Shown here piece by piece: positions 19,000-33,221 of a stretch of DNA of 33,221 nt. The stretch comes from Deltaproteobacteria bacterium (GTDB lineage Bacteria > Myxococcota > XYA12-FULL-58-9). The position numbers were made by a program, and so were the translations under genes. Under the pieces are notes generated by a model, which was not told the origin of the DNA, did no database searches, and saw nothing but the letters and a program-made list of their open reading frames with translations. The stretch covers positions 1 through 33,221 of the forward strand of contig JACRCV010000054.1 of assembly GCA_016218825.1 (NCBI GenBank). Direction: 5' to 3'. Position 1 is the stretch's first letter; the number at the start of each line of letters is the position of its first letter.

Positions 19000-19017
19000 T
19001 GCCGGGGATCTGCTCCC

Positions 19018-19109
19018 GTGCGGGGGCACGGGGGGGCGAGCCGGCGCGCCACGTTCGGCGTGGTCCGCGGACGGAGTGCCGGCGGGAGGTCCCCCCGCTA
19101 GGTTGGCTG
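19018..19109 (+). repeat. Dispersed palindromic repeat, copy A
   Basis: Copy A aligns with copy B (32994-33083) at GTGCGGGGG, GAGCCGGCGCGCC, GCCGGCGGG, GGTCCCCCCGCT and TTGG. It folds as nested stems: six G (19031-19036) with six C (19091-19096), GCCGGC (19040-19045) with GCCGGC (19078-19083), and CCACG (19049-19053) with CGTGG (19059-19063) around a TTCGG loop. It lies between the porin stop and the metallohydrolase start. Strand is nominal, because the element is close to symmetrical. Confidence 0.7.
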
Positions 19110-19181
19110 GGGGTGGGGAGCGCCGCGGCGGCCGCGGCGCGGGAATCAAGGAAAGGCCAAGAGGCGCTGGGCGGGCCCTCA

Positions 19182-20624
19182 TCAGAATGTCACCTGCGTC
19201 GCCGCCTCCACGCGGTCGTTGGCCTGGGCGCGCCCGCCCTGCTCGACGCTGTGGGCGTACTCGAGGTGCAAGATGAGCGGCATGCTCTCGGCGATGTACT
19301 TGAAGCCGACGGTGTGCAACACCACCCGATCGACGTCGGCGCCGGCGGCGGCGTCGCTGGTCTTGACCTCGCGCGGATCCAAGAGCGCGAAGCGATACCC
19401 CGGGTAGAACCCGGTGTCCGGCACCTGCACCGACACCTGCGCGTGACCGCCGAGCGAGTAGACCGGCTCGAGGCCGGTGCGGCTCATGGCGTCGGTGCGC
19501 GCGCCCAGGAGCTGCCCCTGGAGGTAGAACACCATGAAGTGCCACGCGACGTCGAGGCCGGCGCCGATGACCCGGTCGCTGTAGCGACTGGGCTCGAGCC
19601 CGTAGGACAGCTCGTTGTAGAACCCCGACAGGCCGACGATCCCGCCTTCTTGCACCTGCCGATGGGTCGCGGGACCTTCCTCGTCGTCGCCGTCGCCGGC
19701 GGCGGCGAAGCGGGCGAAGAAGCGGCCGTAGGCCGCCGGTAGATCGTTGTCGTTGAACGCCGCGTCGCCGGAGTTGCCGTTGGTGACGGCCAGAGCGTAG
19801 CCGAGGCTCATCGCGCCGCCGGCCATGAGCTTGTCGCTGCCGAGCATCACGCCCATCTGCCGGCCGGGCGCGAAGCCGGCGACGTCGCTGCGGCCGAACA
19901 AGTCGCCGTGCGGGCCTTCGTGGCGTAGGACGCCGCGCGACTCCAGAGCGCGGTGGACGAAGAACTGATCCTCGGTGGGGGTGAGCTCCTCGACGTCGAA
20001 GGGCGGCTTGAAGCGGCCGACGAAGATGCTCGCCGCCGGCACGAAGGTGTAGCGCAGGTAGGCATCTTTGAGGCCGGTCGACAGCGCGCCGACGGTGTCC
20101 TGGTCGTCGGCGTACGACACCAACGCGCCGTCGAAGCCGAGGCGCACGTAAAGGTTGTCGCGGTAGACGGCGCGCAGGTTCAAGCGCGCATCGCCCAAAC
20201 CGAAGCCGTCGTTGCGGCCGACCCCGGGGAGCGCGGAGCGCTCGTAGCTCGCGGGCATGCGGATCCCCATGAATCGGTCGGGGAGGATGCTGCCGGCCTC
20301 GACGCGCAGGTGACCGTCGACGCTGAGGTCGAAGTGCCCCTTGGCCTTGCCGGCCGGGCAGCCGCAGGCGCCATCCTCGCCGCGCTCGCCGTGATGCTCG
20401 TGTCCCTGGTGATGCATCGGCATCTCGGCGGCGGGCGCCTCTTTGGCCGGCTCCGGCAACGCCGCCGGTTGTTCCGCGCTTGCCGGCGTCGCGGTGATCG
20501 CGGCGTCCTGAGCCGCAGCCGCCGGCACCGCCGGCGTCTCTTGGGCCGTCGTGCCCGGCTCGCCTTCTGCAAACGCGACGAACGAATGGAAGACCGACAG
20601 CGCCACCAGCACCGCATTCCGCAT
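19182..20624 (-). CDS. Outer-membrane porin, phosphate-selective (OprP/OprO) type
   Basis: 480 residues. Signal peptide MRNAVLVALSVFHSFVAFAEG, then about 60 residues of Ala/Pro-rich linker and an unusual His/Cys-rich stretch (MHHQGHEHHG, then CGCPAG). From about residue 95 the protein has alternating beta strands with aromatic girdle residues and ends in Phe, as BamA substrates do. FVGRFKPPFDVEELTPTEDQ resembles the strand-turn region of Porin_O_P members, and periplasmic-turn spacing is regular. Substrate is not known; phosphate is only the family association. The ATG at 20624 has GGGAG six bases upstream and TATCGT at 20642-20647. It is the first gene of the minus-strand array running to gcvPB. 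Confidence 0.72.
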   Translation of the reverse strand: MRNAVLVALSVFHSFVAFAEGEPGTTAQETPAVPAAAAQDAAITATPASAEQPAALPEPAKEAPAAEMPMHHQGHEHHGERGEDGACGCPAGKAKGHFDLSVDGHLRVEAGSILPDRFMGIRMPASYERSALPGVGRNDGFGLGDARLNLRAVYRDNLYVRLGFDGALVSYADDQDTVGALSTGLKDAYLRYTFVPAASIFVGRFKPPFDVEELTPTEDQFFVHRALESRGVLRHEGPHGDLFGRSDVAGFAPGRQMGVMLGSDKLMAGGAMSLGYALAVTNGNSGDAAFNDNDLPAAYGRFFARFAAAGDGDDEEGPATHRQVQEGGIVGLSGFYNELSYGLEPSRYSDRVIGAGLDVAWHFMVFYLQGQLLGARTDAMSRTGLEPVYSLGGHAQVSVQVPDTGFYPGYRFALLDPREVKTSDAAAGADVDRVVLHTVGFKYIAESMPLILHLEYAHSVEQGGRAQANDRVEAATQVTF

Positions 20625-20641
20625 CAGACTCTCCCGAAAAG

Positions 20642-20647
20642 ACGATA
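20642..20647 (-). promoter_or_regulatory. -10-like TATCGT before the porin gene
   Basis: TATCGT on the minus strand lies 17 bases before the porin ATG, leaving a short leader that contains the GGGAG ribosome binding site. No clear -35 is seen. Confidence 0.3.
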
Positions 20648-20717
20648 GGTTCCCGTCGCCTGCTGGCGGCGGTTCGGCGCATCAGAAGCGCTCCGCCGCT
20701 TTCAAGTCAAGCGGGAA

Positions 20718-20757
20718 CTGGGGCGCTGGGATCCCGTCCGGCTGCGGCGAGCCCCAG
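20718..20757 (-). terminator. Stem-loop downstream of tRNA-Thr
   Basis: CTGGGGC (20718-20724) pairs perfectly with GCCCCAG (20751-20757). The loop contains GGGATCCC, which is itself a palindrome. It lies 33 bases after the 3' end of tRNA-Thr in the direction of transcription. No T-tract follows, so a terminator or processing signal is plausible but not certain. Confidence 0.35.
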
Positions 20758-20789
20758 AACCCAAGAACCCTTTCGCGCGGGGGAAATGG

Positions 20790-20862
20790 AGCCAAGAAGC
20801 GGGTTCGAACCGCCGACCTGCTGATTACGAATCAGCTGCTCTGCCAACTGAGCTATCTTGGC
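20790..20862 (-). tRNA. tRNA-Thr (anticodon CGU)
   Basis: 73 nt with a seven-pair acceptor stem GCCAAGA/UCUUGGC, D-arm AGCUCAGUUGGCAGAGC, anticodon stem GCUGA/UCAGC around the loop UUCGUAA (anticodon CGU, decoding ACG), and T-arm with UUCGAAC. The discriminator is U. CCA is not encoded. It has its own promoter at 20874-20903. Confidence 0.95.
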
Positions 20863-20873
20863 TCGCGACGCCC

Positions 20874-20903
20874 CCTGTAGCAAACCCATGGCGCCCCTGT
20901 AAA
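20874..20903 (-). promoter_or_regulatory. Promoter of tRNA-Thr
   Basis: TTTACA (minus strand, 20903-20898; five of six to TTGACA), an 18-base spacer, and TACAGG (20879-20874) with an upstream TGC extension. The expected transcript start is about five bases before the tRNA 5' end, a normal arrangement. Confidence 0.55.
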
Positions 20904-20907
20904 GGCG

Positions 20908-21924
20908 TCAGTACGCCTCGTAGTAGACGTACGGCGCCAGGCTGCAGCCGTTGGAGCTGCTGCTCGGCGAGCACGAGCCGTCGCGCGCGGTGCGCTGGTT
21001 CGCGGGCGTCCCGTCACCGCGCGTCCCCGCCCAGATCGCGACGCTGACCCCGGTCACCACCAACGCCGCGGCGCCGGTGAGCGCCCACCACTGCAGGTAC
21101 CACGGCTTCGCCGAGGTCACCGTGGCGCCGAGGTTCGCGGTCGGACCCGACAGCTTGGAGCCGGTGGGCGACACCGCCAGGATCTCGAGCGGCGGGGCCT
21201 CGAGCGGCAGCAGCGCGTCGCCGTCGCCGCCGCCCGGCGGTGGGGCCTCGAGCGGCAGCTCGCCGAGCGCGTCGACCTCGGCGCCCTTGCCGCCCTTTGG
21301 CGGCATCGCCAGCCCTGGAAGCGGCGCCAGCGCCAGGTCATCCGCGGCCGCGGCCGAGCCCTTGCGACCCCCGGGCGCCGCGAGCGGCACCAGCGCCAGC
21401 TCGTCGACGGCGTCGGCGGCGCTCTTCTGCAGCGTCGCCTGCACCTCGTACTCGTTGCCGGGATCGGCGGCGACGACCTTCGAGTAGGTCCCGTAGCCGG
21501 GAGCCGAGACCGTGACCGTGTGCGAGCCAATCTTCAGCTCGTGCTCCAGCGGCACCTTGCCGACCGCCTTGCCGTCCACCGACACCACGGCCTTCGGCAC
21601 GTTCGCCTGCACCTTGATGACGCCGGCGAACGGCAGCATGTCGGCGAAGATCGCGACCGGCTTGCCGGCCTTGGCGCTCACCTTCTCGGTGAAGTCGAGG
21701 TAGCCGAGCTTCTTGACCACGATGGTGTGGTTGCCGAGGCTCAGATCCTTGTTCTTCAGCGGCGTCTTGCCGATCTCCTTGCCGTCGACGTAGACCTTGG
21801 CGCCGCCGATCGTGCCCTCGACCGAGATCGTGGTCTTCTTGCCGGCGCCCTTGGCGACGGCGACGCCCCCGGACGCGAAGCCGAGCGCCACCACGAGGCC
21901 GACGAGGGTCGAACGACGCACCAC
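20908..21924 (-). CDS. Tandem PEGA-domain protein with C-terminal membrane anchor
   Basis: 338 residues. An N-terminal signal peptide (VVRRSTLVGLVVALGFASGG) leads into two PEGA repeats: the first has AKVYVDGKEIGKTPL and GNHTIVVKKLGYLDF, the second AVVSVDGKAVGKVPLEHELK and SHTVTVSAPGYGTY. PEGA repeats are thought to bind or pack against surface-layer and cell-wall structures. A Gly/Pro/Ala linker (about 170-260) follows, then one membrane segment (WALTGAAALVVTGVSVAIW) and a short Cys-containing tail. I chose the GTG at 21924 because an extended -10 lies six bases upstream; GTG at 21921 or 21945 is possible. Confidence 0.75.
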   Translation of the reverse strand: MVRRSTLVGLVVALGFASGGVAVAKGAGKKTTISVEGTIGGAKVYVDGKEIGKTPLKNKDLSLGNHTIVVKKLGYLDFTEKVSAKAGKPVAIFADMLPFAGVIKVQANVPKAVVSVDGKAVGKVPLEHELKIGSHTVTVSAPGYGTYSKVVAADPGNEYEVQATLQKSAADAVDELALVPLAAPGGRKGSAAAADDLALAPLPGLAMPPKGGKGAEVDALGELPLEAPPPGGGDGDALLPLEAPPLEILAVSPTGSKLSGPTANLGATVTSAKPWYLQWWALTGAAALVVTGVSVAIWAGTRGDGTPANQRTARDGSCSPSSSSNGCSLAPYVYYEAY

Positions 21925-21930
21925 GCAAAG

Positions 21931-21939
21931 ACTGTAGCA
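21931..21939 (-). promoter_or_regulatory. Extended -10 element TGCTACAGT before the PEGA gene
   Basis: TG-C-TACAGT on the minus strand ends six bases before the GTG at 21924, with no ribosome binding site. This supports a leaderless transcript and helps choose the start codon. Confidence 0.45.
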
Positions 21940-21969
21940 CAACACCGCGCGCCGCTCCCGCAGTTGCAG

Positions 21970-23955
21970 TCAGGGCTCGGCGTTCCCGAGCCGGATCTCG
22001 ATCGGCGTGGTCTCCGCCTCTTCGATCCGATCGAGGAAGCGCCGGAACGCCGGCCAATCGGCGGCGTCGACCCGATGCACCTTGACCACCAGGCGCCGGG
22101 TGTAGGTGAGGGTCCGATCGCGACGCGCGAAGCCGGCGGCGTATTCGGCGAACGGCTCGACGATCTTGACCAGCGCCGGCAGCGTCATCTCGTAGCCGAC
22201 CGGCACCTCGACGCTCGCGACCGCCTCGCCCCACAACGGCGCCTCCAGCAACGCAGCGTGCCGCCGCGAGGTCCGCCAGCGCCCCGGCAACGCCGGCCCG
22301 GCGAGCTCGACGGCGCGCAGCCGGTAGTGCTCGAAGTCGATCTTCTCGAGTCGACCCTCGGCCTTGGCCCTGAGCTTGACCGGCTCGTCCACCTGGGTCT
22401 CGCCGGTGACCTTCACCTGCGTCAGACGCACGCTCGGCTGTTCGCCCAGCACCGCCTGGGTCGCGATCTGGTCGCGGCCGTCGTCGCCGTCGACCCCGGC
22501 GAGCGCGCCCCGCACCCGCCGCGCCACGGCGCCGGTGAGCTCGCCGTTCATCGCGCCGCTCAAGCTGCCGTCGATGTCCAACGCCAGGCGAAACTGGGTC
22601 ACCGAGCGGTTGCGCTCCGGCGGGTCGAGCGGCACGTCGACGAAGCGCGGCCCGTCGGGGTGGAGCACCAGCGCCGTCCCCCCGGTGAGCGCGGTCGCCA
22701 GCTCGCCGTAGCGGCAGCTGCCGCAGAGAGGATCGAGGAAGGCGTAGCTGTCGGCCGGCACGGTGCACAACAGGCCGCGGCGCGCCGGATCGTCTTTGCA
22801 GCTCGGGTCTTTCGCGATCTCTTCGCTGACGTCGACGGCGACCACCGCGCGGACGAAGGGGTAGAGGCCGGGCAGGTCCTTGACCACCACCGGGCCGGAG
22901 GCGGTCGCGAGGAACGCCGGATAGGCCTTGGCCGACCCGCCCTGCATCGCGCGCCACAGCAGCGCCGCCGCGTCCCGGGTGCACGCCGCCTCGCCGCGCT
23001 CCAGCTCCTTGGCCGGCACCGGCCGCCGCACGCCCAGGCCGGGGACGTCGAGGCCGGCGAGCATCGCCCGCACCCGCATGAAGCGCTTCTTCGCCGAGCC
23101 GCTCTGGGCATCGCCGCCGACCTCCTCGAGCTGCAGCGACAGCTTGGCGGCGACGTCCTCCCAGGACTGGAGCCTACGCTTCAGCGAGCCGTGCCGGGCG
23201 CTGGTCACCACCGCGGCGATCCACGGCGACAGCCGGGCGTAGCTCGGCATGTCGGGCTCGGCATAGTACGCCGGCAGATCGCGCTCGACGAACACCCAGC
23301 GCTCGCGGCCGTCGTCGAGCTTGCGCCGCAACGGCAGGTTCTCGACGACGCTCTCGCCACGGCCATAGCGATAGTCGACCTTCACCCCGGCGCCGGTGAC
23401 GATGCCGAGCTCGGCGCGCATCACCGGCAGCGGCCCGCCGAAGACCCACACCGGCACGTAGTCGGGGTCGGTGAACACCCGCTCGTAGCGATACTCCACG
23501 AGCCCGCCGACCTCGGCGCCCGGCACGGTGAACACCACCTGCTTCACCTCGCTCGCCTGGGTCCTGACGTCGGCCTGCGGCAAGATCGAGAAGGCGTTCT
23601 CCTCCATGTGGGTCACGTCGCCGTCGGCCGCGACGCTGCGCCCCACGGCCCGCGTCACCCGCGAGAACCCGTCCATCGGCAGGACCACCCGCGCCTCGGC
23701 GAGGCCGGCGGGGCTCAAGATCTTCAGCCGCCGCCGGTGATCCAGGACCACGACCAGCCGCGGCGCGACGTTTTCGGTCACCAACACGTCATAGGTGAGG
23801 GTCGCGACGTCCTCGATCACCGCCGCCCCGACGTCCGGCCAATCCCCGGCGGTCGGCTGCGCCGGCACGAACGGGGGCGGGAAGGCGTCGCTGCCCAGGG
23901 TGCCGCAGCCGGCGAAGGTCGCGAGCAGCGACAGGCACGAGAGGATCCGTTGCAC
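21970..23955 (-). CDS. DUF3857/transglutaminase-like lipoprotein, catalytic His missing
   Basis: 661 residues. The signal peptide ends in a lipobox (LLATFAGC), so it is a lipoprotein. The N-terminal part (about 50-300) is beta-rich and DUF3857-like. The core (about 320-460) keeps a Cys in AACTRDA where active relatives have GDCKDxA. The expected His of FDHVIV is replaced in FVRAVV, and the LDPT region reads LDPLCGSCRYGE. The C-terminal region is beta-rich. It is a paralogue of the protein at 12870-14813: both share DLPGLYxF and DPxCxxCxxGE. The start is a GTG with an extended -10 (TGCTAGACT) six bases ahead. The function is not known. Confidence 0.72.
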   Translation of the reverse strand: MQRILSCLSLLATFAGCGTLGSDAFPPPFVPAQPTAGDWPDVGAAVIEDVATLTYDVLVTENVAPRLVVVLDHRRRLKILSPAGLAEARVVLPMDGFSRVTRAVGRSVAADGDVTHMEENAFSILPQADVRTQASEVKQVVFTVPGAEVGGLVEYRYERVFTDPDYVPVWVFGGPLPVMRAELGIVTGAGVKVDYRYGRGESVVENLPLRRKLDDGRERWVFVERDLPAYYAEPDMPSYARLSPWIAAVVTSARHGSLKRRLQSWEDVAAKLSLQLEEVGGDAQSGSAKKRFMRVRAMLAGLDVPGLGVRRPVPAKELERGEAACTRDAAALLWRAMQGGSAKAYPAFLATASGPVVVKDLPGLYPFVRAVVAVDVSEEIAKDPSCKDDPARRGLLCTVPADSYAFLDPLCGSCRYGELATALTGGTALVLHPDGPRFVDVPLDPPERNRSVTQFRLALDIDGSLSGAMNGELTGAVARRVRGALAGVDGDDGRDQIATQAVLGEQPSVRLTQVKVTGETQVDEPVKLRAKAEGRLEKIDFEHYRLRAVELAGPALPGRWRTSRRHAALLEAPLWGEAVASVEVPVGYEMTLPALVKIVEPFAEYAAGFARRDRTLTYTRRLVVKVHRVDAADWPAFRRFLDRIEEAETTPIEIRLGNAEP

Positions 23956-23961
23956 CGCCGC

Positions 23962-23970
23962 AGTCTAGCA
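23962..23970 (-). promoter_or_regulatory. Extended -10 element TGCTAGACT before the DUF3857-like lipoprotein
   Basis: TG-C-TAGACT on the minus strand ends six bases before the GTG start at 23955. Just upstream, CGGGGC and GCCCCG (23977-23998) form a hairpin followed on this strand by GTTTTC, which could block read-through from the divergent side or act as an operator. Confidence 0.45.
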
Positions 23971-24049
23971 GAAAACCGGGGCGTGGACAGAAGCCCCGTG
24001 CGCCGTCCCCCGGCACCGGAAACCTCTCCGCTTCGGCGCCGTTCCTTTG

Positions 24050-24055
24050 TATGAT
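24050..24055 (+). promoter_or_regulatory. -10-like TATGAT before the FHA gene
   Basis: TATGAT matches TATAAT at five of six bases and ends nine bases before the ATG at 24065. No Shine-Dalgarno fits in between, so the mRNA would be leaderless or nearly so. Confidence 0.4.
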
Positions 24056-24064
24056 GACGCGCCC

Positions 24065-26065
24065 ATGGCGTCCTCCGATCCGTTTGCGGCCGGACCCGTG
24101 CCGCCCCGCGTGCTCCTCGTCGAGGTGCGCCTCGGCGCCAAGCTCCTCGCCACCCACACCCTCGAGCGCTCGCCGGCGGTGATCGGGCGCAGCAAGACGT
24201 CGGATATTCGCCTCGAGGCGTCGGGGGTCTCGCGGGTGCACGCGCGGCTGTTCTTCGACGTGCGCGGCATCCGCATCGTCGACGCCGACAGCCACCACGC
24301 CTTCAAAGTCCGCGGTCGACGCCAGAAGGACAGCCAGCTCGCCGAAGGCGAGGAGGTCGACATCTGCGGCTACGTGCTGACGTGCCGTTTTTGCGATCCA
24401 AAGACCGCCGCGGCCAAGGCCCTTCCCGAGTCGACCCACCCCGACGTCGTCCCGGCGCCGCCGGTGGATGACTGGGACGACGGCGAAGCGGACGAAGAGG
24501 CCCCCGAGCCGGGGACCATCGTCCGCCCCCTGACGCAGAACCTCGCCCAGTCGCCGCGGCCGCTCGGGCTCGATGCGTCGATCCCGGAGGGCAGCGTGAT
24601 GAACCGGCTGGTGTTCCAGTCGAGCGTCGCGGCGCAACCGGATCCGGGCGCGCCGGCGTCGGCCAAGCACCCGCTCGAAGACGGCGAGGCCCCGGGCGAC
24701 AATGACGGCGACAATGACGGCGACGGCGACGGCGACGACCCGCCGCCCTTCGACTCCCGGCCGCAACTGCTCACCTTGCACGAAGAGGCGAACGCGCTGT
24801 TGCGGGACCACCCCTACGGTCGGGTCGCGGTCTTGGTCATCCAGACGATCAACGAAGAGGTCGCGAGCGTCGACACGATCCTGCCCGGCCGGGCGACCTG
24901 GTGGGGCGGCCGACCGGGGCCGGTCGAGTCTTTGTGGGTGGTGCCGACCGTCACCCGCTTCCCGATGGTCACCCACACGGTGGTCGGCGAATACAGCGTC
25001 CAGATCCCGCACGATCCGGACTGGAAGATGTTCCACCGCGGCCGGCGGCCGGTGGATCTGTACCGCTCCGGCCCCTTCGTCGGCTGCAAGGCCGAGTTCG
25101 ATGATCAGGTCGAGATCTCGACCGGCGCGTTCGCGGCGTACGTCCGCTGCGTGCGCCTGCCGGCGCCGCCGCCGGCCAACGGGCGCTGGCAGGACGCGAT
25201 GCCGACGAAGAGCGTGTGGCAGGCCTTGGCGGCGTCGCTCGCGCTGCACCTGTTGTTGACGCTGTTGCCGGCCGCCACCCGACCGTGGAACATCACGCCG
25301 CTCGGCCGGCCGGACTACTTCGTCGCCCTGCTGCGCCCGGAGCCGACGGCGCCCGAGGCGGTGCTGTCGGCGACGGCCGCCAAGCCGGCACCACGACCGC
25401 CGCCACCGGCGACCGCGGACGGCCAGCGCCGCCCGGGGGCCGCGCCGCTCGATACCGCGTCGCTGCCGCCGATCGTCGCCCCGACCAAGCGCGCGGCCGG
25501 GCTCCGGGCGCGGGTCAAACGCCGGCCGGAGGTGAAGCCGGGCACGCCGGAGGCGACGCCGACCCCGGAGACCCTGAGCACGCCATTGAAGTCGGTGTCG
25601 GTCGCCGACTTCAAGGTGTCGGGGTTCATCGCCGGGCTGCCGACCCTCGAGATCGATCTGCCACAGCGGCGGGCGATGGGTGGCGCCGCCGCGGCCATCC
25701 GCTCCGGCGCGGCATTGCCGGCGGGCGTGGTGACGAAGAGCCTCGCCAACCTGAAGACGACACCGACCGGGCGCCTGCCGGACGCGACCGTCAAGGCGGT
25801 GGTCAGCGCGCACGCGGCGGAGATCGAGCGCTGCTACAACCAGGCGCTGTTTCGGGAGCCCGGGCTGTCGGGTCGGATCGACCTCACCTGGACCGTCGAC
25901 AAGATCGGAGTCGCGACCGACGTCCGCGCCGCCTACGACGAGCCCGGCTCGCCGACGTTGCTCTCCTGCCTGCAGCGCACCGTGGCCACGTTCGTGTTCC
26001 CGCCGCCCAAGGGCGGACCGACCCGAGTGAGCTTCCCGTTCGTGTTCACCGACCTGCGGCGCTGA
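24065..26065 (+). CDS. FHA-domain protein with TonB-like AgmX/PglI C-terminus
   Basis: 666 residues. Residues about 15-105 are an FHA domain (VIGRSKTSDIRLE, SGVSRVHARLFF), which binds phosphothreonine peptides. An acidic linker with a DNDG/DGDG repeat follows. About 230-370 is a globular region of unknown type. One membrane segment lies near 383-402 (LAASLALHLLLTLLPAA), then a Pro-rich stretch. The last 95 residues (about 572-666) match the TonB-like AgmX/PglI C-terminal domain of gliding-associated envelope proteins, with IERCYNQALFREPGLSGRIDL and VSFPFVF. The topology would put FHA in the cytoplasm and the TonB-like end in the periplasm. It is followed by a zinc-ribbon/TPR protein of similar design. 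Confidence 0.82.
   Translation: MASSDPFAAGPVPPRVLLVEVRLGAKLLATHTLERSPAVIGRSKTSDIRLEASGVSRVHARLFFDVRGIRIVDADSHHAFKVRGRRQKDSQLAEGEEVDICGYVLTCRFCDPKTAAAKALPESTHPDVVPAPPVDDWDDGEADEEAPEPGTIVRPLTQNLAQSPRPLGLDASIPEGSVMNRLVFQSSVAAQPDPGAPASAKHPLEDGEAPGDNDGDNDGDGDGDDPPPFDSRPQLLTLHEEANALLRDHPYGRVAVLVIQTINEEVASVDTILPGRATWWGGRPGPVESLWVVPTVTRFPMVTHTVVGEYSVQIPHDPDWKMFHRGRRPVDLYRSGPFVGCKAEFDDQVEISTGAFAAYVRCVRLPAPPPANGRWQDAMPTKSVWQALAASLALHLLLTLLPAATRPWNITPLGRPDYFVALLRPEPTAPEAVLSATAAKPAPRPPPPATADGQRRPGAAPLDTASLPPIVAPTKRAAGLRARVKRRPEVKPGTPEATPTPETLSTPLKSVSVADFKVSGFIAGLPTLEIDLPQRRAMGGAAAAIRSGAALPAGVVTKSLANLKTTPTGRLPDATVKAVVSAHAAEIERCYNQALFREPGLSGRIDLTWTVDKIGVATDVRAAYDEPGSPTLLSCLQRTVATFVFPPPKGGPTRVSFPFVFTDLRR
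24698..24739 (+). repeat. In-frame acidic microrepeat (GACAATGACGGC and GACGGC units)
   Basis: Two 12-bp units GACAATGACGGC are followed by GACGGC units, coding for an Asp/Gly/Asn run in the linker of the FHA protein. Units are multiples of three, so slippage would change length but not frame. Confidence 0.7.
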
Positions 26066-26075
26066 CCGGCGGCGC

Positions 26076-26102
26076 GGATTCGCTTGCCATGAAGACGAAT
26101 CC
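26076..26102 (+). terminator. Hairpin after the FHA gene
   Basis: GGATTCG (26076-26082) and CGAATCC (26096-26102) form a perfect seven-base inverted repeat ten bases after the stop codon, with a 13-base loop. The following TTGAAATC is not a T-tract, so termination is uncertain. TTGAAA at 26103-26108 could instead serve as a -35 for the next gene. Confidence 0.35.
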
Positions 26103-26163
26103 TTGAAATCAACACGGCGACGGTGCCAGACTGTGGCCTTGGTCGGGTGAGGAGTAGATCGCG

Positions 26164-28149
26164 ATGTTGGTCAGGTGCACGAGCTGCAACAAGCCGGTGT
26201 TCGTCAGCTCCGCCGCGGTAGCGACAGGCGACGCCACCGTGCCCTGCAAGGCGTGCAACACGATGAACATCGTCTCGCCCAAGGGCGAGGTCCGACGCGC
26301 CGACGGTGCCGCGCCGGCCGCCGCGGCCACCCCGGCAGCCACCGGCGCCGCGAGCCCGTTCGGAGCACCGACGCCGCCGGAGATCGCGCCGGCCGCTCCA
26401 CCCGAGGCCGCGCTGTTGGCGACGACGCCGGTGACCCACGACGCTGCCGTGATCGAGACGACCGTGATCACCCCGTCGCCCGCGCCGCCGGTGCCGGTCG
26501 CAGTGCAGGCGGTACCGCTGTCGGTGCAGCCGGTGATGAGCCTGCCGACCGAGCCCCAGAATCCGGAGGTGACCGCGATCTCGACGGCGCCGACGCCGCC
26601 GGAGCCGACCGCTCACGTCGAGGTCACGTCGATCACCCCGTCGCCGTTCGCGGCACCTCAACCCCGACCGTTGACGCCGGCGAAGCTGTCGCCGCAATCG
26701 CTCGGGCGAGCGGCGAGCGGCTCCGGCCCGGCACCGGTGGCGACCGGCGCCACCAGCGGCGTGACCCGGCCGCTCGCCTGGCGCAAGACCGCGGACTCCG
26801 AGGTCACGTACAAACCCCCGGAAGCGCAGAGCGGCATGGGCGCCCCCTTCGAGCCCACCAATCCCGACGCGGCCGCGCCCTTCAACGACAGTCCGCCGCC
26901 CCCCGAGGAGGAGCCGGCGCCGACACCGAGCTTCTCGCGCGTCGCCACCGATCCGGTCGCCGCCCCCACGGTGTTGAGCGGGCATCCGTTCGAGCCCGAA
27001 GACGAAGACGAGGACGCCCCGCCGCCCGCGGTCGCCGCCGCCGACGTGGTGACCCATGTCGGACCGGCACCCTCCCCCACCGCCGGCATGAGCCCGCCGG
27101 GAGCCGCGGCAGCCGAGCCCGCGCACGCGCCGCCTGCCGCTCTGGGCCTCGCCGCGATGCCCGCGGAGCATGCGGCGGCACCCGCGCCCGCCACGCCGGA
27201 GCCCGCGGTTGCAGCCCCCGAGGAGATCGGGATCGAGGAGGCGATGCCGATCGAGATGGCAGAGCCGCTCGAGGCCGAGCCGGCCCCGACTGCCATCGAG
27301 GCGCCGGTCCCGGTGGAGACGACGCTGGCGGCGGCCGTGGCGCCGGCCGGAGCCGACTCGCCGTTCCGCCCCCCCACCCCCGAGATCGAAGCCGCCGCGG
27401 GGGTCCGCAAGACCGGTCGCCGAGCCGCGCTCTACGGCCTCGCGGCGGTGCTGATCGTCGCCGTCGTCGGCGGCCTCGCGTGGACGACGGGGCTGCTCCC
27501 TCGCCGCTGGCTGCGCTCGTTGCGCCCGGTGGTCGCAGCGACGACCGAGGCGCCGACGACGCCAAAGACGCCCGCGGCCGACGAGCCGTCACTGGCGGCA
27601 ACGCCCGACGCGACGCCGACTGAGCCGACGCCGGCCGCCGCCACCGCCGAGGCGGCCGCCGACGCCACGCCGCCAACCGAGACCCCGAGCGCGGAGGAAG
27701 CAGCGGAGGCCGCCACCGAAGAAACCGGGGACAAGGCCAAGGACCACACCCCCAAAGGCAAGAAAGACCGCAGGAAGCCGCCGAAGGCGACCGGCAAGAC
27801 CGGCAAGCTTGCATCGGGCAAAGGCGCCGGCAAGGGGAAGAGCCCGGCTGCAGGCTCGGTGCCGACCAAGGCCGGCGCCGACGTCGCCGAGGAGCACTAC
27901 AAGAAGGCCAACGACCACATGAAGGAGAAGAAGACCGCGGCGGCCATCGACGAGCTCAACCAGGCGCTCGCCGCCAATCCCAAGCACGCCAAGAGCTATC
28001 GCCTGCTGGGGATGGCCTACACCCTCGTGGGCCGCGAGAAGAGCGGCGTCGACGCCTTCGAGAAGTTCATCAAGCTCGACCCAACGCACAAGGACGTGCC
28101 GAAGATCAAGGCGCTGGTCGACGACTACCACCGCAAGAACCCGAAGTAG
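26164..28149 (+). CDS. Zinc-ribbon / single-pass membrane / TPR protein
   Basis: 661 residues. The N-terminus is a small zinc ribbon with paired Cys at 5/8 and 28/31 (CTSC, CKAC), like the MJ0042-type ribbons that open many myxobacterial regulatory and motility proteins. Residues about 40-415 are low-complexity Ala/Pro/Thr. A membrane segment follows (GLAAVLIVAVVGGLAWTTG, about 425-443), then a Lys-rich linker and a C-terminal TPR pair (about 580-661) with EEHYKKANDHMKEKKTAAAI and YRLLGMAYTLVGREKSG. Cytoplasmic ribbon and periplasmic TPR are inferred from topology. The ATG at 26164 has GAGGAG upstream. It follows the FHA protein gene on the same strand. Confidence 0.8.
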   Translation: MLVRCTSCNKPVFVSSAAVATGDATVPCKACNTMNIVSPKGEVRRADGAAPAAAATPAATGAASPFGAPTPPEIAPAAPPEAALLATTPVTHDAAVIETTVITPSPAPPVPVAVQAVPLSVQPVMSLPTEPQNPEVTAISTAPTPPEPTAHVEVTSITPSPFAAPQPRPLTPAKLSPQSLGRAASGSGPAPVATGATSGVTRPLAWRKTADSEVTYKPPEAQSGMGAPFEPTNPDAAAPFNDSPPPPEEEPAPTPSFSRVATDPVAAPTVLSGHPFEPEDEDEDAPPPAVAAADVVTHVGPAPSPTAGMSPPGAAAAEPAHAPPAALGLAAMPAEHAAAPAPATPEPAVAAPEEIGIEEAMPIEMAEPLEAEPAPTAIEAPVPVETTLAAAVAPAGADSPFRPPTPEIEAAAGVRKTGRRAALYGLAAVLIVAVVGGLAWTTGLLPRRWLRSLRPVVAATTEAPTTPKTPAADEPSLAATPDATPTEPTPAAATAEAAADATPPTETPSAEEAAEAATEETGDKAKDHTPKGKKDRRKPPKATGKTGKLASGKGAGKGKSPAAGSVPTKAGADVAEEHYKKANDHMKEKKTAAAIDELNQALAANPKHAKSYRLLGMAYTLVGREKSGVDAFEKFIKLDPTHKDVPKIKALVDDYHRKNPK

Positions 28150-28172
28150 CCCGAACGGGACCGTCCTGCCGG

Positions 28173-28201
28173 TTGCGCGCCCGCGGCCAACGCGGTATTG
28201 A
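28173..28201 (+). promoter_or_regulatory. Promoter of tRNA-Arg
   Basis: TTGCGC (28173-28178), a 17-base spacer, TATTGA (28196-28201), then 12 bases to the tRNA. The spacer contains the small inverted repeat CCGCG/CGCGG. Confidence 0.5.
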
Positions 28202-28213
28202 GAGTGCGGCCTC

Positions 28214-28290
28214 GCGCGATTAGCTCAGATGGATAGAGCGTCGGCCTCCGGAGCCGAAGGCCGCAGGTTCGAATCCTGCATCGCGCGCCA
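28214..28290 (+). tRNA. tRNA-Arg (anticodon CCG)
   Basis: 74 nt plus an encoded CCA (28288-28290). The acceptor stem GCGCGAT/ATCGCGC, the D-arm, the anticodon stem TCGGC/GCCGA around the loop CTCCGGA (anticodon CCG, decoding CGG) and the T-arm GCAGG-TTCGAAT-CCTGC are all intact. Discriminator G. It differs from tRNA-Thr in this window in carrying the CCA end. Confidence 0.96.
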
Positions 28291-28385
28291 CTCTTTCACG
28301 ACGCCGCCGGTGTGGGCCGTGCCGAAGCGGCAGATTCGGGTTGCGCCGCCGCGATCGGCACCGATTCTAGACCGGGAGTCCATCG

Positions 28386-29012
28386 ATGGTCCTCGGACAC
28401 GCCACTCCCCTCCTCCTGCTGTCGTTCTTGGCCGGCACCGCCGCCGACCCCGTCACCCGCACCGAGGCGCTGGTCGCCACCTTCAAGGCGGTGAAGACCA
28501 AGACGAACGCCGCCGCGCCTCTGAGCGACGCCGACCGCAAACAAAACGGCGCGACCTTCGCCCTCCTCGACGACTTCTTCGACTTCGACCGGATCACGAA
28601 CGACGCGATCGGCGACCTCAAGAGCCGGTTCGCGCCCGACGCGCTGAAGCAGTTTCTGGCCAACTTCAAGGACGTCATCCGCCTGGTCGCCTACCCCAAC
28701 TCCGGCGCCGCGCTCGCCAAGGCGAAGCTCCACCTGAAGGCCGGGCCGAAGCGGGACACCGCGACCCAGGCCGACGTCGACATGACGCTCCGTGGTGACG
28801 CCGACGACAGCGACACCCGGGTGACGTTCCATTGGGAGCAGCGCCAGGGCACCTGGCGGATCTACGACGTCAGCTTCGACGGCAGCTCGCTGGTCAAAGA
28901 CTATCGCAACCAGTTCGGCCGCATCGTCGACAAGGACAAGGTCGAGGGGCTCACGAGCAAGGTCAAGAAGAAGCTCGACGAGAGACGAAAGGAAGACCTG
29001 ATCCTGCCATGA
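28386..29012 (+). CDS. MlaC/Ttg2D-like periplasmic lipid carrier
   Basis: 208 residues with signal peptide MVLGHATPLLLLSFLAGTAA. The mature part resembles MlaC/Ttg2 proteins, which carry phospholipids across the periplasm between Mla complexes: a helical start, then LLDDFFDFDRITNDAIGD and a beta part with VTFHWEQRQGTWRIYDVSFDG and GSSLVKDYRNQFGRIV, which is the typical C-terminal block. The ATG at 28386 has GGGAG upstream. It is coupled by ATGA to a TolC-like gene. MlaD, MlaE and MlaF are not in this window. Confidence 0.8.
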   Translation: MVLGHATPLLLLSFLAGTAADPVTRTEALVATFKAVKTKTNAAAPLSDADRKQNGATFALLDDFFDFDRITNDAIGDLKSRFAPDALKQFLANFKDVIRLVAYPNSGAALAKAKLHLKAGPKRDTATQADVDMTLRGDADDSDTRVTFHWEQRQGTWRIYDVSFDGSSLVKDYRNQFGRIVDKDKVEGLTSKVKKKLDERRKEDLILP

Positions 29013-30325
29013 GGATCGCGATCGGCTGCGTGTTGGCGCTGTCGGCCGGCACCGCGGGCGCGGCGCCGCTCACCGCCGATGAGTGCGTCGCGGTCGCGCT
29101 CGCGAAGAGCGCCAAGATCGAAGAGGCCGCGGCCAAGGTCAGAGAGTACGAGGCCCGACTGGCGGAGGTCGAGTCGGTCTACTACCCCAAGCTCCAGGCG
29201 GTCGCCTACGTCGCGCCGATGTTCACGCTCAGCGGCGACGCCACCCACTTCGAGCGCCGGTACAAGAGCTCGAAGGATTGGGGGCCTTACACCCACCTGC
29301 AAGCGCTGTTGGCGCAGCCGCTCTACACCTTCGGCCGCGCCGAGGCCGGCGAGGTCGCGGCGGCGGAGCGCGTCGAGGTCGAGCGCGCCCGGGTGCGGGA
29401 GGTGGAGCTGGCGGTGGCCCTCGAGGTGCGCAAGCTCTACTACGGGCGCCTGCTGGCGTTGAGCATGCTGCCGGCGTTGGACGCGGCCGCGGCGACGGTG
29501 CGCGAGGCGCTGGAACGCGGCGAGGAGCGCTACGATGCCGGTACCGGCGAGGTGAGCCAGGCCGATCTGATGAAGCTGACCTATGGGCGAAGCGAGATCG
29601 CCAAGGGACAGCTGGAGGCGCAGTACGGCGCGACCCTGGCCGCGGCGGCGCTGAAGCAGGCGATGGGGCTCGCCGACGACCAGCCGCTGGCGCTCGCCGA
29701 CGACCGTCTCCCGGACCTGCCGGGGGAAGAGCCGCTGAGCGTCCCGGCCCTCGTCGCCGAGAGCGCCCGCCGGCGACCGGAGTGGCGACAGATCCAGCAC
29801 GGCCGCCGCGCCGTCGAGTCGCTCGCGCTCGCCGAGCTGCGCGCCAACTACCCGGTGCTGTTCGCCGCCGGCCAGCTCACCTACGACTGGACGCCGATGC
29901 GGCAGGACTCGCCGAACCCCTACGTCTACGACGCCTACAACCAGCTGGTGGGCGGCGTCGCCATCGGCCTGCTGTTCAACCTCGACCCGGCGCTCGCCGC
30001 CGCCAAGGCACGCGGCGCCGAGGCGCTGGCCGCGGAGATCGACGCGCTGGACCGCTTCGCGGCGACCGGGATCCCGCTGCGGGTCCGCAAGGCCGCCGGC
30101 GACCTGCAGCGGGCGCGACGCCTGGCCGAGCTGTCGGCCGACGGGGTCAAGGCGACGAAGAAGTGGATGGCGTTTGCCGCGACCCAATACCTGACCGGGC
30201 TCGGCGACGCCCGCGACCTGCTCGAGGGGCTGGTGGCGTATCTGAGCGCGAAGAAGGCCGCGTACCAAGCGAGCTACGAGTACTTCGTCAGCCGCGCCGC
30301 GCTCGACTTCGCCGTCGGTCACTAG
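29009..30325 (+). CDS. TolC-family outer-membrane efflux protein
   Basis: 438 residues, a usual length. Signal peptide MRIAIGCVLALSAGTAGA, then LTADECVAVALAKSAKIEEAAAKV, the standard start of the outer-membrane efflux protein fold. Two alpha-hairpin repeats of long Ala/Glu/Arg-rich helices follow, each with a short beta region (YVAPMFTLSG; FAAGQLTYDW). It would trimerise as an outer-membrane and periplasmic tunnel. The ATG overlaps the mlaC-like stop (ATGA). No inner-membrane pump or adaptor is in the window, so the exported substrate is unknown; a lipid route is an inference from its neighbour. Confidence 0.87.
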   Translation: MRIAIGCVLALSAGTAGAAPLTADECVAVALAKSAKIEEAAAKVREYEARLAEVESVYYPKLQAVAYVAPMFTLSGDATHFERRYKSSKDWGPYTHLQALLAQPLYTFGRAEAGEVAAAERVEVERARVREVELAVALEVRKLYYGRLLALSMLPALDAAAATVREALERGEERYDAGTGEVSQADLMKLTYGRSEIAKGQLEAQYGATLAAAALKQAMGLADDQPLALADDRLPDLPGEEPLSVPALVAESARRRPEWRQIQHGRRAVESLALAELRANYPVLFAAGQLTYDWTPMRQDSPNPYVYDAYNQLVGGVAIGLLFNLDPALAAAKARGAEALAAEIDALDRFAATGIPLRVRKAAGDLQRARRLAELSADGVKATKKWMAFAATQYLTGLGDARDLLEGLVAYLSAKKAAYQASYEYFVSRAALDFAVGH

Positions 30326-30352
30326 CCGGCCGGTTCACTGTTGCTCGATTTG

Positions 30353-30396
30353 GGCGGATCTGTTAGGTCCGGCTCGACTTCGATGAGCGATCCGCC
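30353..30396 (+). promoter_or_regulatory. Inverted repeat in the leader of the PilZ gene
   Basis: GGCGGATC (30353-30360) is perfectly complementary to GATCCGCC (30389-30396), and GCTC/GAGC pair inside. The structure ends six bases before the GGGAGG ribosome binding site of the PilZ gene. It could be a terminator for the TolC-like gene or a translational control element. Confidence 0.4.
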
Positions 30397-30413
30397 TCGG
30401 CGGGAGGGCGCGC

Positions 30414-30809
30414 ATGAGCAGTGTTGATCGCCGCAGTGGTGAAAGACGCAAGGGACAGACGAGGGTTGCCCTCGAGCGCCGGCACCTCGAGCGCCGGCGC
30501 GGCGCCGATCGCCGCGAAGCCCAGCGCGTCCCGCTCGAGCTGTGGATGGAAGAGGTCTCCGGGGACGACGTCTACTTCCGCCGCACCGGCAACGTCAGCG
30601 TCGGCGGGGTCTACTTCGACCGCGCCATCCCGCACGCGCTCGGCACCGTGGTCACCCTGAAGTTCGCGCTCCCCGGCGACCGCGAGATGGTGGTCGCGAG
30701 GGGCGAGGTCGTCACCAGCGCCGGCACCCAGCAGGGGCTCGGCATGGGCGTGAAGTTCATCTCGATCGAAGGCGACGGCGAGAAGCGGATCCGCACCTAC
30801 CTGCGCTGA
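30414..30809 (+). CDS. PilZ-domain c-di-GMP receptor
   Basis: 131 residues. The first 35 residues are very Arg-rich (DRRSGERRKG and the repeated LERRH/LERRR). The PilZ domain covers about 35-130, with the c-di-GMP motifs RREAQR (RxxxR type) and NVSVGG (D/NxSxxG). Both halves of the binding motif are present, so it is expected to bind c-di-GMP. No output domain is attached; single-domain PilZ proteins act by binding partners, often in motility or exopolysaccharide control. The ATG at 30414 has GGGAGG upstream. It converges with the lipoprotein gene at 30825. Confidence 0.88.
   Translation: MSSVDRRSGERRKGQTRVALERRHLERRRGADRREAQRVPLELWMEEVSGDDVYFRRTGNVSVGGVYFDRAIPHALGTVVTLKFALPGDREMVVARGEVVTSAGTQQGLGMGVKFISIEGDGEKRIRTYLR
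30470..30498 (+). repeat. Tandem 14-bp direct repeat inside the PilZ gene
   Basis: CCTCGAGCGCCGGC occurs at 30470-30483 and 30485-30498, a period of 15 bases, duplicating the peptide LERR(H/R). It lies in the basic N-terminal arm, before the PilZ fold. Confidence 0.7.
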
Positions 30810-30824
30810 GCCGCCGCGGTCGTT

Positions 30825-31250
30825 CTACAACGGATACAGATACAGCTGCACCTCGACGGTGCTGCCGGCGGCCACGGTCACCGAGTCGGTGCAGCCGTTG
30901 GCGATCGCCGTACCGCCGGCGTCGAAGGCCTCGCCGTAGACCAACCGATTGTCGCCGGGCTCGACGTTGGCGATGTCGAGGGCGCGCCCGGCGGGATCAG
31001 TGAACGCGATGTCCTGACCGCCGAGGGCCTCGACGCGGGAGTCGTCGGGGGCCATCGCCCGGTCCATCAGGTTGCTGCAGGTCAGGAAGATGCCGTCGGT
31101 GCGGCGCGGCCCGAGCACGTAGACCGAGAGGCTGCGGACCTGGTCCTTGAGCAGCGCGTCCAGCCGCACCGTCGCCGCGACCGCGGTCGGCGAGGCGTCG
31201 CCGCAGCCGACGGCGAGCATCAACCCCACGCAGATGAAACGCTTGCTCAT
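30825..31250 (-). CDS. Small lipoprotein, unknown function
   Basis: 141 residues. The signal peptide MSKRFICVGLMLAVGC has a lipobox (LAVGC). The mature part is beta-rich with two further Cys (LTCSNL and NGCTDS) that may form a disulfide, and the C-terminus ends VEVQLYLYPL. I do not recognise a family. The start overlaps the stop of the TPR-like lipoprotein gene (ATGA), so the two are coupled. A partner role is inferred only from that. Confidence 0.65.
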   Translation of the reverse strand: MSKRFICVGLMLAVGCGDASPTAVAATVRLDALLKDQVRSLSVYVLGPRRTDGIFLTCSNLMDRAMAPDDSRVEALGGQDIAFTDPAGRALDIANVEPGDNRLVYGEAFDAGGTAIANGCTDSVTVAAGSTVEVQLYLYPL

Positions 31251-32110
31251 GGCTCGTCCGAAAAGTGAATGTTCACGTGCACCGTGCCCGGCGCCTGGTC
31301 CCGGGTGAGCACGATCGCCAACGCCACCCCGGTCAACACCAGCACCACCGCGCCGCCGACGATGCTCCAGATGGCCCACTGCGGCAGCGGCTTGCTGCCG
31401 CCGGTCGTGGTCACCGCGCCGCTTTGCGGTCCGGTGAACGGCGACCCGTGCGTGTCGCCGCGGTCGCCCTCGACGCCGGTGCCCGCCCCCACCCCGCCGC
31501 CGGACGGCGACGACAACCCCCGCACGAGCGGCGCGCTCTCGCTGCCACTCGGCACCTCGACGCCGGACGCGAGCTTCGCCACCAGGAAGTAGCGCAGCTT
31601 CGCGCCCGCCGTGGCCTTGACGCTCCCCACCCACACGTCGCCCTCGCGCTTCAGCGTCACCTCGACGGGCCGGGCGTCGGCGGCCGCGAGGACGAAGGCC
31701 TTGAGCTCGCCGAGCTCGACGCCGGCGGGGGCGACGACCTTGACGGCCCAGGCGTCCGTCGCCGTCTTGGTGTCGATCGGCTCGAGCTCGAGGCCCTGGG
31801 TCTCGAGGATGTCGCGCTTGGCGTTGTTGAACAGCGTCTGCAGCTTGGGTGCGACGTCCGGCCCCAAAGACAGGTCGGGGTTGTCGACCAGCAAGCGATG
31901 GAACGCGGCGCGGGCGTCATCGTCACGGCCGAGCGCCAAGAGCACGAAGGCGCGCAACCGCTCGCAGGCGGCGAACGTGCTCCCCGACTCGCAGCGCTCC
32001 CCGAGCTCTTTGAGCGCCCGCTCGTACTTGGCTTTCTCGTAGAGCTGCTCGGCCCGCTCGATGGGCGTGGCGCCCTGGCAGGCAACGACGAGCAACAGCA
32101 CCGGAGTCAT
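31247..32110 (-). CDS. TPR-like lipoprotein with C-terminal membrane segment
   Basis: 287 residues. A very short signal (MTPVLLLVVAC) ends in a lipobox-like VVAC. Residues about 15-100 are helical repeats of TPR type (RAEQLYEKAKYERALKELGE and FVLLALGRDDDARAAFHRLL). A beta-rich middle domain (about 115-200) follows, then a Gly/Ser/Thr linker and one membrane segment (WSIVGGAVVLVLTGVALAIV) near the end. The membrane segment resembles that of the PEGA protein at 20908-21924. The ATG at 32110 has GAGG eight bases upstream; a GTG at 32119 is possible. It is divergent from the HEAT-like gene. Confidence 0.7.
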   Translation of the reverse strand: MTPVLLLVVACQGATPIERAEQLYEKAKYERALKELGERCESGSTFAACERLRAFVLLALGRDDDARAAFHRLLVDNPDLSLGPDVAPKLQTLFNNAKRDILETQGLELEPIDTKTATDAWAVKVVAPAGVELGELKAFVLAAADARPVEVTLKREGDVWVGSVKATAGAKLRYFLVAKLASGVEVPSGSESAPLVRGLSSPSGGGVGAGTGVEGDRGDTHGSPFTGPQSGAVTTTGGSKPLPQWAIWSIVGGAVVLVLTGVALAIVLTRDQAPGTVHVNIHFSDEP

Positions 32111-32213
32111 CTGGTCCACCTCGAGCGGGATACCTCGGGAGCTTCTCTGCGGGCGCTGTGCAAGTCAAGCCGAGCTGCTTGACCCAACCGGCCAACCCCA
32201 TTTTACTGCCGCC

Positions 32214-32960
32214 ATGAGCGACACTCCGGCGAAGGGCGGCGCCAAGGCGCTGGTCAGCGACATCCTCGCCGCGACCCCGGCGGCCGCCACGACTCCCGCG
32301 GCGCCGGCGCCCGTCGCTGCGCCGCCTGTCGACCCGGACAGCGAGGCCAAAGATCTGATCGAGGTCTACTTCGATCTCGAGGAGCCGGACGAGCGCGACG
32401 TCCTCTTCGATCAGCTCTGCCGCCTCGATACCCCGGTGGTCACCGAGTTTCTCCGCACCATGCTCAGCCACGACGAGGACGACTACGTGCGCGCCGAGGC
32501 CGCCTGTGAGCTCTGCCGCCGCGGCGACGCCGATGGGATCGCCGCCCTCGAGGCCGACCTCGCCGACCCCGAGGAGCCCTATTTCTTCGAGCGCGCGGTG
32601 CAGGCGCTCGCCGAGATCCGCGGCCCGGCGTTCTACGACACCGCGGCGGCCCTGTGGCGCGACCCGGAGCGCGACGCCGAGGAGCGCCGCGAGGCGATGC
32701 TCGGCATGGAGACCGCCGACCCGGCGCGCGCCGTCCTCGACTTCGTGCGCTTCGTGGATTCGATCACCGACATCGCGACGATGCCCGACGACCAGGTGGA
32801 GGTGGCGATGCTGGCCTTCGTCCGCCACGCCCACCGCGACGCCGAGCCGGCGCTCGAGGCCCTCAAAGCGCGCATCGCCAAGGCGTCGATGGATGAAGAA
32901 GAGCGGCTCGAGCTCGTCGCCTTCGTGCAAGAAGGGCTCGACCTGCTCGCCGGCGCCTAG
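32214..32960 (+). CDS. HEAT-like repeat protein
   Basis: 248 residues, no signal peptide. After an Ala/Pro-rich start (about 15-45) the protein is almost entirely helical and acidic. Repeated helix pairs such as FLRTMLSHDEDDYVRAEAAC and ERAVQALAEIRGPAFYDTAA look like HEAT or PBS-lyase-type repeats, which act as protein-protein scaffolds. No catalytic motif is visible. The gene is divergent from the TPR-like lipoprotein, with 103 bp between the start codons. The palindromic repeat copy B starts 33 bases after its stop. Confidence 0.7.
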   Translation: MSDTPAKGGAKALVSDILAATPAAATTPAAPAPVAAPPVDPDSEAKDLIEVYFDLEEPDERDVLFDQLCRLDTPVVTEFLRTMLSHDEDDYVRAEAACELCRRGDADGIAALEADLADPEEPYFFERAVQALAEIRGPAFYDTAAALWRDPERDAEERREAMLGMETADPARAVLDFVRFVDSITDIATMPDDQVEVAMLAFVRHAHRDAEPALEALKARIAKASMDEEERLELVAFVQEGLDLLAGA

Positions 32961-32993
32961 GAGGCACCGAGCATCTGGCTCTGCCAGTGCGAG

Positions 32994-33083
32994 GTGCGGG
33001 GGTTCGGGGGGACGCAGAGCCGGCGCGCCGCGCCCCGAGAGAGCCTCGGGTATCGAGCCGGCGGGCGGTCCCCCCGCTCTTGG
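32994..33083 (+). repeat. Dispersed palindromic repeat, copy B
   Basis: Same element as at 19018-19109. Outer stem GGGGGGAC (33006-33013) with GTCCCCCC (33068-33075), middle stem GCCGGC (33019-33024) with GCCGGC (33057-33062), and inner stem CCCGAG (33034-33039) with CTCGGG (33045-33050). The inner stem differs in sequence from copy A but still pairs. The right IS50-type element begins directly after its conserved TTGG. Confidence 0.7.
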
Positions 33084-33102
33084 CTGACTCTTCCACACAT
33101 CT
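33084..33102 (+). repeat. Terminal inverted repeat of right IS50-type element
   Basis: CTGACTCTTCCACACATCT, inverted relative to 118-136 and differing from it at positions 11 and 19. The outer boundary is 33084, immediately next to the palindromic repeat copy B. Confidence 0.8.
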
Positions 33103-33171
33103 TTTTCCTGCGGCGCGTCGGCTTGCCTTCGGTCGGATTCGATGATCTGCCACGGCTGAGGAGCGGTTCAC

Positions 33172-33221
33172 ATGAAACCAGAAGGGAATGTCGTTGCTTG
33201 GGCTGAGAGCGTTTTCGGGGA
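33172..33221 (+). CDS. IS4-family (IS50/Tn5-like) transposase, N-terminal fragment
   Basis: Sixteen codons are present before the window ends. The ATG at 33172 follows GAGGAG by eight bases. The peptide MKPEGNVVAWAESVFG aligns with the start of Tn5-type transposases, where a Trp-Ala-x-x-x-Phe segment precedes LGD. It is the N-terminal DNA-binding part. The terminal repeat 70 bp upstream supports the call. It is not the same protein as the fragment at 1-62. Confidence 0.72.
   Translation, partial: MKPEGNVVAWAESVFG

Follow-up and report, generated by a model that had tools for sequence, protein, structure and literature searches.

What is the palindromic sequence that stands twice in contig JACRCV010000054.1 of a Deltaproteobacteria bacterium (the window; 33,221 nt, the whole stretch of DNA analysed), and by what means did it spread? 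An earlier note on this DNA had placed look-alike copies at 19018-19109 and 32994-33083, each with nested G6/C6 and GCCGGC/GCCGGC pairing, and both copies and their pairing were present in the window sequence. The exact string GGTCCCCCCGCT occurred at only two places in the window, namely the two copies, and the pair also surfaced in a repeat scan. The element is probably a non-autonomous mobile repeat, similar in kind to repetitive extragenic palindromic (REP) elements, that is retained because of its fold and is tolerated where genes end.

Architecture and Subfamilies

The unit was longer than the earlier note had drawn it: the second copy extended over 32960-33079 and included an overlooked 5' hairpin (P1). 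In the core, P1 was followed by a G-rich linker and a second hairpin (P2) of the form GGGGGGAC-GCAGA-stem ... stem-GGGCG-GTCCCCCC. The P1 tip was usually GGC-TNN-GCC. In P2 a lower stem (GGGGGGAC/GTCCCCCC) led through a conserved, asymmetric internal loop (GCAGA/GGGCG) into an upper stem of ~6 bp, which was capped by an apex. The 180 distinct copies measured 66-131 nt, mostly 85-94 or 115-122 nt, with two hairpins. Copies with a short apex (whole element ~85-92 nt) were typical of Acidobacteriota, and a hypervariable long apex, giving an upper hairpin of 43-48 nt, was found in the host and other Myxococcota/'Deltaproteobacteria'.

Host copies fell into the following subfamilies: short-end copies, located at CTAG; long-end copies, whose surrounding sequence was akin to a second repeat (TTTGATTCCCGCG...); subfamily B, a 170-bp miniature inverted-repeat transposable element (MITE; loci L063-L092); and diverged singletons (L013, L069, L071, L081, L082). 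At five Acidobacteriota loci (L254, L256, L257, L321, L325) the P2 loop GACATCG..CAGGCGGTC replaced GACGCAGAG..CGGGCGGTC, with both loop sides co-varying. A reverse-strand open reading frame through the element was dropped as a candidate, copy lengths not being kept to multiples of three. An attC/integron site, prompted by the hypervariable apex, was likewise set aside; no cassette arrays or R-box-like ends were seen, and no formal test was made.

Copy Number and Taxonomic Distribution

Further copies in the genome had been set as a test of the repeat family, and they were found in number. In the 6.5-Mb host genome a 108-nt query from the second copy returned 44 BLAST matches (best non-self E = 1.5e-44). 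Trained on 25 copies, covariance model R1 scored 67 matches at E<=1, ~60 of them strong, and recovered weaker host subfamilies that BLAST missed. Several contigs had a start or an end within a copy, an indication that the repeats broke up the host assembly; in practice, repeats that coincide with contig ends in this way can also confuse gene-end annotation.

The family was not confined to the host lineage, in which the earlier note had placed it. When GTDB species genomes were scanned with an exact pattern, the full architecture was found in metagenome-assembled genomes (MAGs) of Myxococcales/'Deltaproteobacteria' and of Holophagaceae/Acidobacteria, placing it in other Myxococcota/'Deltaproteobacteria' and in Acidobacteriota. 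Among 195 genomes of the host's own phylum, the pattern matched the host and its congener only. A record labelled Bacillota (MH_R1_5) grouped with Acidobacteriota genomes. Pattern matches in other taxa look like chance, as do those at L123, L128-L130, L139, L143, and L145, and three matches on viral contigs were rejected for want of a P1/P2 context. A search of phages and plasmids with one Acidobacteriota copy gave no match.

A broader model (R2) matched 29 of 396 Acidobacteriota genomes in a survey that scored only 10 candidates per genome. Deeper searches of six genomes yielded 63, 23, 20, 13, 11, and 8 copies. The 63 copies were in genome G242 and the 20 copies in G516, a complete genome in a single 3.67-Mb contig. 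In a covariance-model search of Rfam no family matched the element. Literature searches, with most subscription literature outside their reach, returned no paper describing it.

Covariation and Fold

Covariation among copies was strong. The set tested comprised 29 distinct P2 sequences, each excised at constant distances from the loop motifs. Pairing was intact in 92% of P2 cells, and 57 cells carried double-sided changes against 17.4 +/- 3.0 in shuffled sets. The P2 covariation score was 0.345 versus 0.087 shuffled, and structures slid by 1-3 columns scored <=0.083; a test corrected by average product correction (APC) agreed. Genuine covariation was located at the outermost P2 pairs and along the upper stem. 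The P2 stems are thus maintained by compensatory change, as would equally be expected of DNA hairpins. Three limits apply to these figures: the P2 sequences are related, so that shuffles overstate significance; the anchor pattern partly imposes the loop conservation; and the outer six P2 pairs had passed a mild filter for pairing. P1 stems also varied between copies and stayed paired, in an alignment made by pairing, and P1 is therefore not an independent covariation test.

Selection on pairing had earlier been argued from the inner hairpin (CCACG/CGTGG in one copy, CCCGAG/CTCGGG in the other), and on that ground the argument failed. The apical region was hypervariable, and across 32 distinct long versions its mean folding z-score was -0.27 +/- 0.17, hardly above shuffled sequence. 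In the P2 upper stem, 16 G-T and 12 A-C cells were counted in the anchored test; an excess of G-T over A-C in possibly biased model-fitted alignments, considered as evidence of RNA, vanished there.

Mobility and Arrays

The element is multi-copy, is missing from corresponding sites in relatives, and multiplies locally into head-to-tail arrays. When the flanks of filled sites in genome G422 were joined, the product matched unbroken sequence in many related genomes, and alignments showed the element missing there. Site L322 read GGATCAGA when empty; when filled, it had TCAGA to either side of the element, as a short duplication could produce. Adjacent copies had the same orientation in 25 of 25 pairs, mostly 91-99 nt apart, and three genomes carried 1, 1, and 3 copies at an orthologous locus (L242, L258, L305). 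At L303 (G242:C26:98200-98900), L304, and L311, 3-6 units followed one another head-to-tail with a period of ~97-99 nt.

Inverted ends together with target duplication, the marks of a MITE, were seen in host subfamily B. Its 170-bp copies had GTAA-type ends (GTAASCGTTCACGG...GAACGGTAAC), 8-bp target duplications, and no room for a transposase gene. The duplications matched at 82 of 96 positions, compared with 34.4 +/- 5.9 when shuffled and 20-28 in other registers. Derivatives of subfamily B without P1 (L087, L089, L091) also lay between duplications; P1 is thus dispensable for the mobility of this subfamily. These ends and 8-bp duplications we take to be IS66-like, a type of insertion sequence (IS).

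Genomic Placement

Copies lay almost only in intergenic DNA, mostly near stop codons and away from promoters. Nearly all host copies were intergenic, whereas 86% of the scanned DNA was coding. Host gaps holding the element were convergent, tandem, and divergent in 16, 27, and 7 cases, versus 10, 50, and 19 for other gaps (p=0.02). The corresponding counts in Acidobacteriota were 21, 39, and 4 versus 7, 49, and 25 (p=2e-5). Convergent gaps were thus enriched, and divergent (promoter) gaps depleted, in both.

Copies often stood flush with stop codons. Of 53 opposing downstream genes in Acidobacteriota, 46 ended 0-16 nt from the element, with a distance of exactly 7 nt the commonest. In the complete genome G516 the element frequently began with the TGA of the upstream gene. 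Two single sites may be mentioned here. At L082 (1501-1609; G000:C101:88498-88606) a host copy stood in a tRNA and signal recognition particle (SRP) RNA cluster, between the SRP RNA (1378-1474) and a tRNA from 1616, which begins 6 nt downstream of the element. At L126 (5626-5743) the single copy of a Holophagaceae MAG was apparently placed between groES-like and groEL-like reading frames.

Comparison With REP Elements and Other Known Systems

REP-type repeats are small bacterial DNAs moved by a dedicated Y1 transposase. They form the GTAG and CGTC superfamilies (Di Nocera 2013, PMC3733652) and are associated with the transposases termed RAYTs (PMC2817692). They are extragenic, lie <20 bp from 3' ends in tandem or convergent gaps, and have termini that lend stop codons (PMC3733652). 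The present element was like them in being short, palindromic, and dispersed, in lying near 3' ends in tandem and convergent gaps, in lending stop codons, and in its occasional GTAG-type head. It differed in four respects. Its 85-120 nt held two unlike hairpins and an internal loop, whereas a REP is one palindrome of 20-40 bp. It carried no consistent GTAG or CGTC tag: GTRG was found near the 5' head in 28 of 180 copies, a CGTC-like string in 6, and minus-strand CGTC of the 5' head in 48. Its arrays were head-to-tail only, in contrast to REP dimers, which are mainly head-head or tail-tail. REPs flank their cognate Y1/RAYT gene, and no RAYT was detected in most copy-rich genomes. Because tag, size, array orientation, and transposase all fail to agree, the element is a variant of the REP kind and not a REP family. 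The earlier suggestion of a REP/BIME-like (bacterial interspersed mosaic element) or MITE-like element therefore stands in kind (dispersed, multi-copy, intergenic, at 3' gene ends, mobile) and falls in the strict sense of a REP with tag and RAYT. The element leads a REP lifestyle with another architecture, in a family not found described in the literature searched.

TIRtron terminal inverted repeats (TIRs), which accompany TIRYT genes, are palindromic, some doubly so, and form moderate repeat families, including in Acidobacteria (PMC3733652). The Y1 loci examined here were not flanked by the element, and the TIR motif GGGGWSAS occurred in 7 (+) and 2 (-) of 180 copies, a comparison made by motif and by published description. 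Likeness to MITEs with 8-bp duplications was confined to the ends of host subfamily B; the core was independent of such ends. The string GGGACGCAGAGCC resembles the GEMM (c-di-GMP-I riboswitch) motif. A riboswitch of that class was rejected: the resemblance was one of motif only, the topology differed (the string lies on the P2 5' strand), and there was no Rfam match.

Weighing the Explanations

If the element is a REP-like mobile repeat, a trans-acting transposase would recognise its ends or its folded core and would insert it at short targets that can coincide with stop codons, CTAG for the host short-end subfamily and TCA/TGA in Acidobacteriota. Insertion at a stop codon would leave the neighboring protein unchanged and would therefore be tolerated, and selection would then purge copies from promoters and genes. 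Pairing would be kept because the enzyme or a host protein recognises the folded strand, be it single-stranded DNA, a cruciform, or a transcript. Some copies would have been carried by conventional transposon ends, for example those of the 170-bp MITE. Only tentatively would we go further and propose that such structure-encoded mobile DNA forms a class spanning both phyla, its two-hairpin core and conserved internal loop serving as substrate for another kind of enzyme, neither a Y1/RAYT nor a conventional IS transposase, which places copies at stop codons; this wider proposal is more doubtful than otherwise.

Several results weigh against the REP-like mobile reading. Using six-frame searches of assemblies that were partly incomplete (G516 being a single contig), a Y1 transposase (PF01797) went undetected in 9 of 13 genomes tested, most of these copy-rich: G516, G352, G335, G242, G376, G584, G196, G446, and G195. 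The element was absent around the Y1 loci examined (best match 18 bits, E 0.56). The IS66 transposase (PF03050) had no match in the host (G000; 96.5% complete) or in G195, and an IS66 source for subfamily B may possibly be extinct or lost. Flanking triplets in Acidobacteriota were equal in 8 of 23 copies (p=0.02), which is only suggestive of a 3-bp target duplication there. Gene boundaries were set by an ad hoc codon-usage model, and some Acidobacteriota copies lay inside predicted genes. Tolerance at stop codons is deduced from placement, and the element may possibly act as a functional RNA.

That last idea can be taken further: the element could be chiefly a structured RNA of 3' untranslated regions, a protector of transcript ends or terminator-like, whose spread is secondary to its usefulness at gene ends. 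Its position 0-16 nt behind stop codons, the convergent enrichment, the strong stem covariation, one locus retained across several genomes (L244/L246/L252/L327), and the Holophagaceae copy beside the groEL-like frame would all suit such a role. Sense orientation was inconsistent in the host, however (upstream +, 28; downstream -, 32). A U-tract after the hairpins was absent, wobble pairs showed no clear strand asymmetry, Rfam held no match, and the patchy distribution (0-63 copies per genome) with empty orthologous sites also speaks against it; we consider it unlikely. Somewhat less probable again is that these are plain MITEs of ordinary IS families (IS66-like, IS5/IS630-like) with the hairpin core as passive cargo. 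Subfamily B with its inverted ends and duplications, its P1-less derivatives, for which P1 is unneeded, and the short-end copies at CTAG fit this account, but the core was far more conserved than any ends and recurred with unrelated ends in two phyla, and the 170-bp subfamily had no matching transposase in the two genomes searched for the IS66 enzyme. That the repeats are classic REP elements with a RAYT (Y1) transposase as their mover is largely refuted as a general explanation and very improbable. Placement downstream of reading frames, stop-codon lending, and hairpin DNA do fit the REP pattern (PMC3733652), some copies have a GTAG or GTGG head, and the host carries three Y1 genes; against this stand the missing Y1 gene in the complete genome G516 and the 63-copy G242, the lack of any element adjoining an examined Y1 gene, the low frequency of the GTRG head, and the strictly head-to-tail arrays. 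The lack of a detectable Y1 gene in most copy-rich genomes, a complete one among them, points to another route to such populations. With the covariance model, the pairs of filled and empty sites, and genomes that hold anywhere from 0 to 63 copies, the hunt for a responsible enzyme can be put directly to the test.

The Window Copies and Their Surroundings

Coordinates of the two window copies are collected in Table 1. The second copy was complete and flush with the TAG stop (32958-32960) of an upstream HEAT-repeat gene, whose gene call ended at 32960; homologues of this gene in G001 and G002 ended without the element. The first copy was flanked by minus-strand genes (15445-18999 and 19182-20624). 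It was without P1, and little remained of its internal loop on the 5' side. Its outer extension was related to a separate repeat family, as repeat matches of the TTTGATTCCCGCG segment indicated.

Table 1. Anatomy of the two element copies in the window.
Feature	Position	Strand	Basis
Copy 2, complete element, short-end subfamily	32960..33079	+	R1 match 32960-33077, E=3e-13; ~40 BLAST relatives
Copy 2 P1 hairpin, GCACC..CTGGC-TCT-GCCAG..GGTGC	32964..32997	+	Consensus fold; apex GGC-TNN-GCC kept in relatives
Copy 2 G-rich linker GGGGGTT, P1-P2 spacer	32998..33004	+	Alignments
Copy 2 P2 lower stem, 5' strand CGGGGGGAC	33005..33013	+	Outer-pair covariation; outermost pair with 4 pair types
Copy 2 conserved internal loop, 5' side GCAGA	33014..33018	+	Near-invariant across phyla, partly via anchor choice; Acidobacteriota variants
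Copy 2 P2 upper stem, 5' strand GCCGGC	33019..33024	+	Double-sided changes in 6/6 upper pairs
Copy 2 hypervariable apical region, with CCCGAG/CTCGGG hairpin	33025..33056	+	No structure beyond shuffles, 32 distinct versions
Copy 2 P2 upper stem, 3' strand GCCGGC	33057..33062	+	Covariation test
Copy 2 conserved internal loop, 3' side GGGCG	33063..33067	+	Alignment across phyla
Copy 2 P2 lower stem, 3' strand GTCCCCCCG	33068..33076	+	Covariation test
Copy 1, degraded long-end subfamily member	18991..19149	+	R1 match 19008-19098, E=1.8e-4; BLAST 74%
Copy 1 P2, GCCGGC/GCCGGC (19040-19045 / 19078-19083) and lower G/C stem	19029..19097	+	Sequence, alignment
Copy 1 outer extension, AGGTTGGCTGGGGGTGGGGAGC-hairpin-GCGGGAATCAA	19100..19149	+	Flank comparison; common to other long-end copies

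The second dispersed repeat had the form TTTGATTCCCGCG-hairpin-CGCGCTCCCC..CCCC. It occurred alone or as the outer part of long-end copies, including window positions 19100-19149, and was seen in the left flank of L010 and at >20 further places in the host genome.

Adjoining the second copy, the last stretch of the window (33084-33221) opened with CTGACTCTTCCACACATC... and continued into the reading frame MKPEGNVVAWAESVFG; we take it to resemble a Tn5/IS50-like IS end. From 33086 on, seven other contigs (C66, C26, C98, C104, C68, C102, and C43) carried it at their ends with 100% identity. This stretch probably accounts for the end of the contig at 33221. Two tRNA genes were present elsewhere in the window, at 20790-20862 (-) and 28214-28287 (+).

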